This document shows positions 15,213-16,826 of a stretch of 40,884 bases of DNA, piece after piece. Source of the stretch: Elusimicrobiaceae bacterium. GTDB lineage: Bacteria > Elusimicrobiota > Elusimicrobia > Elusimicrobiales > Elusimicrobiaceae. Made by a program: the position numbers and the translations under genes. The notes beneath the pieces were generated by a model. It had not been told where the DNA came from. It made no database searches and saw only the letters and a list, made by a program, of their open reading frames with translations. Positions within the stretch are counted from its first letter, which is position 1, and every line of letters starts with the position of its first letter. The stretch spans positions 1-40,884 of the forward strand of contig JAEELM010000049.1 in NCBI GenBank assembly GCA_016282685.1, written 5' to 3'.

Positions 15213-16826
15213 ATGGCAGAAAATTTTACTATTTACGCTCCGATTGACGGAGAATTGATCTCTCTTACCCACGTGCCGGATCCGGTATTCAGCGAACGAA
15301 TGCTGGGAGACGGTATTGCAATTGACCCTATCGGGGACACAATCGTCGCCCCTTTCGACGGGGAAATTATCAATTTCAACCCGGCCCTGCATGCTTTCAC
15401 CATTGCCAAAGACGGCGTGGAACTTCTTATTCACGTAGGGGTTGAAACGGTCATGCTCAACGGGGAAGGGTTTGCCCCCTTGGTGGCGCAAGGAGATAAA
15501 GTAGTAAAAGGACAACCGTTATTGCAATTTCACCCTACTTTCTTATCCCAGCGGTTATCGTGTGCCTATGTACTGCTGGTGGTCACTTCCCCGGCCGGAG
15601 CCTTACTGGTCAACCGTGCACCGGAAGGCCACACCGCTACCGGAACACCCTTGTTTCAAGTGCTGTTGCAAAAAGAAACATCTTCCGCTGCGGACAATAC
15701 CGTACAAAAATCTACTTCCGTTTTGGCCAATGTACGGCTCTATGATAACCCGGAACAACTTGTTTCCATTCACATAGCTAACGGAAAAATTGAAAAAATT
15801 GTTCCCACCCAAGAATCCTGCCCCGGCCAATTAGACGGTAAAGGCAACTATGTGTTGCCAGGGCTCATTGATTTACACATTCACGGATTCGGCGGTTTCG
15901 GGCCGGAAATAGGCACGCAAGAAAGTTTGTTGCGCATGTCACAAGTATTATTGGAACAGGGGGTTACGTCTTTCTGTCCCACTTTGTATTGCGGGCAACC
16001 GGCAGACATGGAAAATTTACTGCGCACTTTATCTCCTGTAGTAGGAACGGAAAAAGGTGCCCGCATTTTAGGCTTTCATTTAGAGGGGCCGTTCATCTCT
16101 CCCCAAAAACCGGGCGTCATGAAACCGCAAGATATTGCCCCGGCCAGTTTGGAAACGTTTGAACGTCTTTATCAAGCCGCCCAGGGCAAAATTGCTTCCA
16201 TGACTTTCGCTCCGGAAGTGGCCGGTATCGAACCGGTGGTTAATTTCTGCAAGGAAAAGGGCATTTTACTTCAAGCCGGGCACACCAACGCTACGTACGA
16301 AGAAATGCTGCAAGCTAAATCTTGGGGCGTGCATCATGTAACACATTTTTGCAACGCCATGAGCCCCTTGCACCACCGTGCACCCGGCGCAGTAGGGGCC
16401 GCCTTGATGGATAATAATTTTTCATGTGAAATTATTGCCGACGGCGTACACGTTCATCCGGCGATTATTTCCTTTTTACGTCGCGTAAAATCGTCCCGAA
16501 AAATTGTTTTGGTAACAGACGCACTGTTGCCTACCGGGCAACCGGAACCTCCTTTCTACGCCAACCGCGAAGAAGTTATTTTAGAAGGCGGCGTATGGCG
16601 CCGCAAAGCAGACCACGTGATTGCCGGCTCTGCGTTGACTATGTTGCAAGGAGTAAAAAATTTAATGGCGTGGGGATATTCACTCGAAGACGCCGTTGCC
16701 TGTGCCAGCACGAACCCGGCCCGTTTGTTGGGATTAAATGACCGCGGAATGATAAAAGAAGGAGCGTGCGCCGATTTGATTTTGCTGGATAAAAATTTGA
16801 ATCTTAAAAAAGTATTTCGCGGATAA
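15213..16826 (+). CDS. nagA: PTS EIIA-NagA fusion (GlcNAc-6-P deacetylase)
   Basis: One 537-residue chain. Residues 1-150 are a glucose/GlcNAc-type EIIA (Crr-like): [14 protein letters not shown], a VAPFDGEI turn, His60 in PALHAFTI and the phospho-acceptor His74 in LLIHVGVETV. A short Ser/Thr linker follows. Residues 166-537 are NagA, which converts GlcNAc-6-P to GlcN-6-P plus acetate: DLHIHG (His222/His224), HLEGPF (Glu291), AGHTNA (His357), THFCNAM (His378) and VTDALLP (Asp436), all the expected metal and catalytic sites. Both halves look active. The EIIA aligns without gaps to that of the EIIA-HPr-EI protein at 30922-33438. The fusion would place the deacetylase at the NagE transporter. 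MerR starts 11 bases downstream. Confidence 0.93.
   Translation: MAENFTIYAPIDGELISLTHVPDPVFSERMLGDGIAIDPIGDTIVAPFDGEIINFNPALHAFTIAKDGVELLIHVGVETVMLNGEGFAPLVAQGDKVVKGQPLLQFHPTFLSQRLSCAYVLLVVTSPAGALLVNRAPEGHTATGTPLFQVLLQKETSSAADNTVQKSTSVLANVRLYDNPEQLVSIHIANGKIEKIVPTQESCPGQLDGKGNYVLPGLIDLHIHGFGGFGPEIGTQESLLRMSQVLLEQGVTSFCPTLYCGQPADMENLLRTLSPVVGTEKGARILGFHLEGPFISPQKPGVMKPQDIAPASLETFERLYQAAQGKIASMTFAPEVAGIEPVVNFCKEKGILLQAGHTNATYEEMLQAKSWGVHHVTHFCNAMSPLHHRAPGAVGAALMDNNFSCEIIADGVHVHPAIISFLRRVKSSRKIVLVTDALLPTGQPEPPFYANREEVILEGGVWRRKADHVIAGSALTMLQGVKNLMAWGYSLEDAVACASTNPARLLGLNDRGMIKEGACADLILLDKNLNLKKVFRG

Follow-up and report, generated by a model that had tools for sequence, protein, structure and literature searches.

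An EIIA–NagA fusion protein in two species of an Elusimicrobiaceae genus and its most likely origin in a collapsed operon

Introduction

Carriers of the bacterial phosphotransferase system (PTS) touch and regulate enzymes, and a covalent EIIA–enzyme fusion would make that carrier–enzyme link permanent. A gene of Elusimicrobiaceae bacterium raises the question of whether such a fusion exists, how it came about, and what a phosphocarrier could do for the enzyme to which it is tied. The window, a stretch of 40,884 nucleotides that is contig C12 of the genome called G000 here (1.42 Mb, 49 contigs, 91% complete), holds on its plus strand at 15213..16826 a frame that the original prediction, made from the letters alone, read as an EIIA joined to the deacetylase NagA.

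Results

The gene is a single stop-free frame running from the ATG at 15213 to a stop at 16826 and encodes 537 amino acids. Residues 1–150 (15213..15662) form an EIIA domain of the glucose family, where the Pfam model PTS_EIIA_1 (PF00358) gives a whole-domain match to residues 6–126 (133.7 bits, cut-off 27.2) and the NCBIfam model PTBA (TIGR00830) matches residues 7–125 (120.5 bits, cut-off 97.5). A variable linker of about residues 151–168 (15663..15716) leads into the NagA domain at residues 169–537 (15717..16823), which is identified by its kept motif residues and by the NCBIfam equivalog nagA (TIGR00221; residues 185–533, 348.1 bits, cut-off 225.65). Pfam finds EIIA and amidohydrolase families only, and HPr and EI are absent from the chain. 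His60 (codon 15390–15392) and His74 (15432–15434) align opposite two histidines of E. coli IIAGlc, which we take to be the active-site pair, the second being the one phosphorylated, and both are kept in 60 of 60 aligned EIIA domains, those of both fusion species included. For the NagA half, 59 of 62 aligned rows retain His222, His224, His289 and Glu291 (the other three have gaps there), and all 62 retain His357, His378, Arg389, His413 and Asp436. These nine residues, presumably metal or substrate ligands, are all present in the window protein and in its counterpart from a second species, G053. The domain search thus bears out the claim of an intact frame with both domains complete and the metal and catalytic residues of NagA kept, and the coordinates and histidine numbers first given for it are correct. 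The NagA half matches stand-alone NagA over its full length with motifs kept (TIGR00221; PDB 2vhl, 1o12), and a Foldseek search with the predicted model of the fusion returned NagA chains and IIAGlc chains; unlike the fusion, the matched NagA chains in the PDB (376–409 residues) carry no EIIA. One in-frame TTG near the linker (residue 171), a candidate internal start for free NagA, shows no evident ribosome site on inspection by eye.

The same architecture is encoded in G053, a second species of the genus, where residues 4–535 of the fusion are matched at 72% identity with no stop and the protein read from its likely start has 539 residues. The EIIA–NagA fusion is therefore real. That the junction is an error of assembly or sequencing, as the draft state of a genome in 49 contigs might suggest, can hardly be true and is rejected, because an independent genome repeats the junction region, the neighbouring gene and the leader. 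The frameshift or read error that the original prediction feared is answered by the G053 frame, which passes the same junction region uninterrupted, and the survey of related genomes that it proposed found there the architecture it sought. The two genomes have rpoB sequences that are 98% identical, and in a tree covering 38 of the genus's 66 genomes the two branch off early. Some match to the fusion protein occurs in 63 of the 66 (the exceptions being G048, G059 and G075), and a match across both domains in one frame occurs in none of the 64 genus genomes beyond G000 and G053; two in 66 is a lower bound, as several genus genomes are incomplete. G012, G013 and G046 have long NagA frames (518–661 residues) that were considered as further fusions and rejected, their EIIA lying in a different frame or contig.

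Wider searches point the same way. A search of 340 genomes of the phylum, genus included, matched 99 at 1e-30, and among the matches listed there was no further span of both domains; a pattern scan of genome contigs, which needs exact peptide patterns, returned six loci, none matched over both domains. In a tblastn search of 72,556 plasmids, 915 records were matched, eight of them with at least 80% covered at a single place; in the nine best-ranked of the ten records listed, NagA and EIIA are neighbours in separate frames (9 of 9). The Novosphingobium plasmids among known systems place nagA, EIIA-HPr-EI (ptsP) and nagE side by side, the same functions as near the fusion, but in separate frames in six of six records examined. 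In [Eubacterium] eligens (NC_012780.1, L166:4190-5796) the row is nagB, nagA, EIIA, EIIC and the glucose-type EIIA overlaps nagA by 7 bases; in contrast to the fusion, these are two proteins, in the reverse order. No report of an EIIA–NagA fusion was found among the titles and opening lines of abstracts of the open-access full-text literature, which at that depth does not contradict the earlier statement that no such fusion had been described. A term search of the main text of a survey of metabolic gene fusions (PMC4921024) found no mention of NagA or EIIA, and the accessible part of PMC11257099 has none of NagA. Stenotrophomonas NagF had been considered as an EI-HPr-EIIA protein and was set aside; PMC13055268 treats NagF as a permease. 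The domain families are known and their combination appears to be new, in a survey that covered mainly the organism's own phylum and plasmids.

The surroundings of the gene indicate where it came from. In both fusion species an alpha-2-macroglobulin gene, our marker of the ancestral locus (9219..15134, plus strand, identified by Pfam), is followed directly by EIIA–NagA, across a gap of 78 bases in G000 and 71 in G053. The gap in the window contains the leader TATACTATAATG (15187..15198, plus strand), the sole match in the window at one mismatch or fewer, where 0.05 were expected. Its 11-base form TATACTATAAT precedes both fusions without a mismatch. Of the 51 other loci of the genus, 48 have it ahead of EIIA-HPr-EI at up to one mismatch (34 exact), whereas before the second operons of G000 and G053 it has at least four mismatches. 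On conservation alone we regard this leader as promoter-like; a sigma-70 consensus scan gave no plus-strand promoter at the fusion, with fewer sites than in shuffled sequences (1 vs 2.5). The second operon lies apart from the fusion, at 28672–33444 of the window and at L043:4177-8974 in G053. On the minus strand of the window it comprises EIIA-HPr-EI, a protein separate from the fusion (30922..33444 from the first start of the open reading frame, a GTG at 33435 being the likelier start), an IICB permease of N-acetylglucosamine (GlcNAc) type that has no EIIA (29486..30913; TIGR01998, 588.3 bits, cut-off 553.2) and nagB, for glucosamine-6-phosphate deaminase (28672..29484; TIGR00502, 335.7 bits, cut-off 236.9). 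The profiles thus recover the EIIA-HPr-EI protein and the IICB already proposed for the window, together with NagB.

Loci were collected from 63 genus genomes and their frames named by similarity to the window genes. Most often the row runs EIIA-HPr-EI, IICB, nagB, nagA. Among the 51 other loci, 21 have no more than 200 bases between the macroglobulin frame and the EIIA-HPr-EI frame that follows. A macroglobulin frame is present somewhere in the fetched stretch in 27 of the 51, and its absence from the other 24 stretches counts against the origin proposed below. The EIIA-HPr-EI protein of the genus accordingly resembles the fusion in its kind of N-terminal EIIA, its leader and, in part of the genomes, its neighbour gene, and the fusion has NagA where HPr and EI stand. 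The simplest reading, and most likely the correct one, is that the fusion arose by collapse of a resident ancestral operon. We infer that an operon of EIIA-HPr-EI, IICB, nagB and nagA lost its middle before G000 and G053 diverged. The loss would have put the end of EIIA and the beginning of nagA into one frame, with nagA now preceded by the leader and start site of the operon, and the nearby second operon of EIIA-HPr-EI, IICB and nagB would have retained the other functions. With ancestral gene order and leader still to be seen in relatives, this would be an unusually readable case of an operon becoming a bifunctional protein. The original prediction gave no account of how the fusion arose.

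The fusion EIIA groups with that of G041 and of 12 genomes that lack IICB at the locus (SH-aLRT 87, or 96 without the long row G040), and the second EIIA of G000 and G053 is placed elsewhere in the tree. The AU test does not reject a topology that makes the fused and the second EIIA of this pair of genomes sister copies (p 0.287), so that the EIIA tree by itself is no proof of orthology to the ancestral locus. A recent duplication as the source of the two EIIA, which that test would permit, is not favoured, the log-likelihood of its tree being 10.4 lower. The position of the G000/G053 pair differs in the trees of NagA, NagB, IICB and HPr-EI, at modest support values, and this counts against the proposed origin. 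The second operon may be a local duplicate or may have come from another lineage. The 12 genomes (G002, G006, G011, G013, G020, G023, G045, G047, G049, G070, G071 and G078) have the row EIIA-HPr-EI, nagB, nagA. Nine genus genomes have NagA without EIIA in the stretches fetched, including G021 and G062, where a contig end truncates HPr-EI; G005 is the reverse case, with EIIA and no NagA.

Comparison of the two fusion species shows how selection has acted along the protein. Over the 126 codons of the EIIA core, identity is 79%, dN 0.133 and dN/dS 0.067; the corresponding figures are 74%, 0.187 and 0.068 for NagA and 78%, 0.138 and 0.12 for the core of the second-operon EIIA. These ratios are only rough because synonymous changes are near saturation (pS 0.6–0.73), which makes dN the safer comparison, and in dN the two EIIA cores hardly differ. 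EIIA residues 127–150 (24 codons) and the linker (15 codons) are each 33% identical, the linker keeping the same residue at 5 of 15 aligned codons in addition to insertions and deletions. Both halves are under purifying selection and the linker drifts, a pattern that looks like two constrained domains on a loose tether. The same data bear on the proposal that the EIIA is retained before nagA only for its promoter and start codon, its phosphate carriage no longer mattering. The leader that stayed with the fusion, the second EIIA in G000 and the variability of the C-terminal part of EIIA and of the linker all fit such a passenger; we nevertheless judge it improbable, given a core that is 79% identical, a dN (0.133) matching that of the second EIIA (0.138) and histidines that are both kept in G000 and G053. 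For the same reasons of core constraint and kept histidines, a decaying EIIA remnant is not favoured.

Discussion

The reading that best accounts for these observations, to which we give a probability of about 0.65, is a bifunctional protein that arose by operon collapse and consists of a working EIIA phosphocarrier, a loose linker and a deacetylase. The NagA half appears to be the only N-acetylglucosamine-6-phosphate deacetylase of G000, a single NagA having been found in a genome 91% complete. The EIIA half is one of two EIIA domains (PF00358) in G000, which also has two PF02378 permeases. The first is the GlcNAc-type IICB and the second an EIIA-less IIBC on contig C17 (L117:5698-7071), whose best model is the MurNAc permease (293.5 bits, cut-off 516) followed by sucrose (279.7 bits, cut-off 559.3), all below cut-off. 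Contig C23 carries free-standing HPr and EI genes together, behind a mannose-family IID gene; neither this pair nor the C17 permease, both outside the window, figured in the original prediction. B. subtilis has six permeases without EIIA, NagP and MurP among them, and glucose-family EIIA allowed growth on GlcNAc (PMC6148471). With the HPr and EI on C23, the EIIA-less permeases and the B. subtilis precedent, phosphate could plausibly reach the fused EIIA and be passed on from it, and this EIIA probably charges permeases that lack an EIIA of their own. We infer that His74 would be phosphorylated by HPr, either the free protein encoded on C23 or the HPr domain of EIIA-HPr-EI, and that the phosphate would pass to the EIIB of the GlcNAc-type IICB and to the MurNAc- or sucrose-like IIBC. 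GlcNAc-6-P made by the IICB would then be deacetylated by the NagA half, for which GlcNAc-6-P formed from MurNAc-6-P via MurQ could be another supply; the MurQ match of G000, on C23, is just above its cut-off (307.9 against 302 bits), and 65 of the 66 genus genomes have MurQ matches over cut-off. The fused EIIA may be redundant in this scheme, because EIIA-HPr-EI already carries its own. The alternatives weighed here overlap with the bifunctional reading, and the odds need not total one.

The tether could also serve to place the enzyme, as the original prediction suggested. EIIA must touch EIIB to hand over its phosphate, and binding of the fused EIIA to a permease might keep NagA at the site where GlcNAc-6-P is released, with catalysis itself unchanged. 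This docking or channelling draws on that required contact and on a GlcNAc permease in G000 that has no EIIA of its own. We consider it rather unlikely, as EIIA and its partner normally touch only briefly, GlcNAc-6-P is a soluble product, and the EIIA of EIIA-HPr-EI would compete.

Alternatively, and this too was in the original prediction, the phosphorylation state of the fused EIIA may set NagA activity, so that uptake controls the first step of breakdown. Conservation of both halves fits such a regulated enzyme, and there are precedents in kind: in LacS the IIA domain, once phosphorylated by HPr, regulates the carrier to which it belongs (PMC10703360), the amino-sugar enzyme GlmS is inhibited by EIIANtr (PMC5024086), and NagB is reportedly bound by HPr (PMC8167557). 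LacS-type permeases, as in S. thermophilus, are also a close parallel in design, with an IIAGlc-like, HPr-charged domain on a non-PTS protein of the same sugar pathway (PMC10703360), although there the IIA is C-terminal on a transporter and here the EIIA is N-terminal on a cytoplasmic enzyme. The linker differs between G000 and G053 in both length and sequence, and this lack of conservation argues mildly against a precise domain geometry; the structure prediction (12 alignment rows, mean pLDDT 63.9, pTM 0.52) is too weak to show how the domains pack. On balance we think that regulation of this kind is quite improbable.

Taken as one proposition, that the EIIA wires NagA to the PTS either by docking it on EIIA-less permeases or by setting its activity through phosphate, the idea is doubtful. 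If true, one and the same histidine would bear the cost of importing GlcNAc, and perhaps MurNAc, and gate the first step of breakdown, and the collapse of an operon would have created a covalent metabolon.

Several features of the genus are worth recording beside the fusion. A bacterial alpha-2-macroglobulin gene lies beside amino-sugar PTS genes in many genus genomes. All 12 genomes without IICB at the locus keep elsewhere the second type of EIIC (MurNAc- or sucrose-like), so that the EIIA-HPr-EI chain may serve that permease. Neither a PF02378 EIIC nor an EIIA match was obtained in G008, G016, G043, G048, G051, G055, G059, G060 and G075; in these nine genomes, some of them incomplete, the EIIA/PF02378 branch of the PTS seems to have been lost. 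In G022 (L047:7629-9003) a second EIIA forms a separate frame of 156 residues, and the HPr-EI frame behind it is cut off by the contig end. In G040 (L116:4588-8829) a single frame of 1413 residues contains EIIA, HPr, EI, IIC and IIB by Pfam in this genome, so that one polypeptide covers every step of phosphotransfer between PEP and the sugar.
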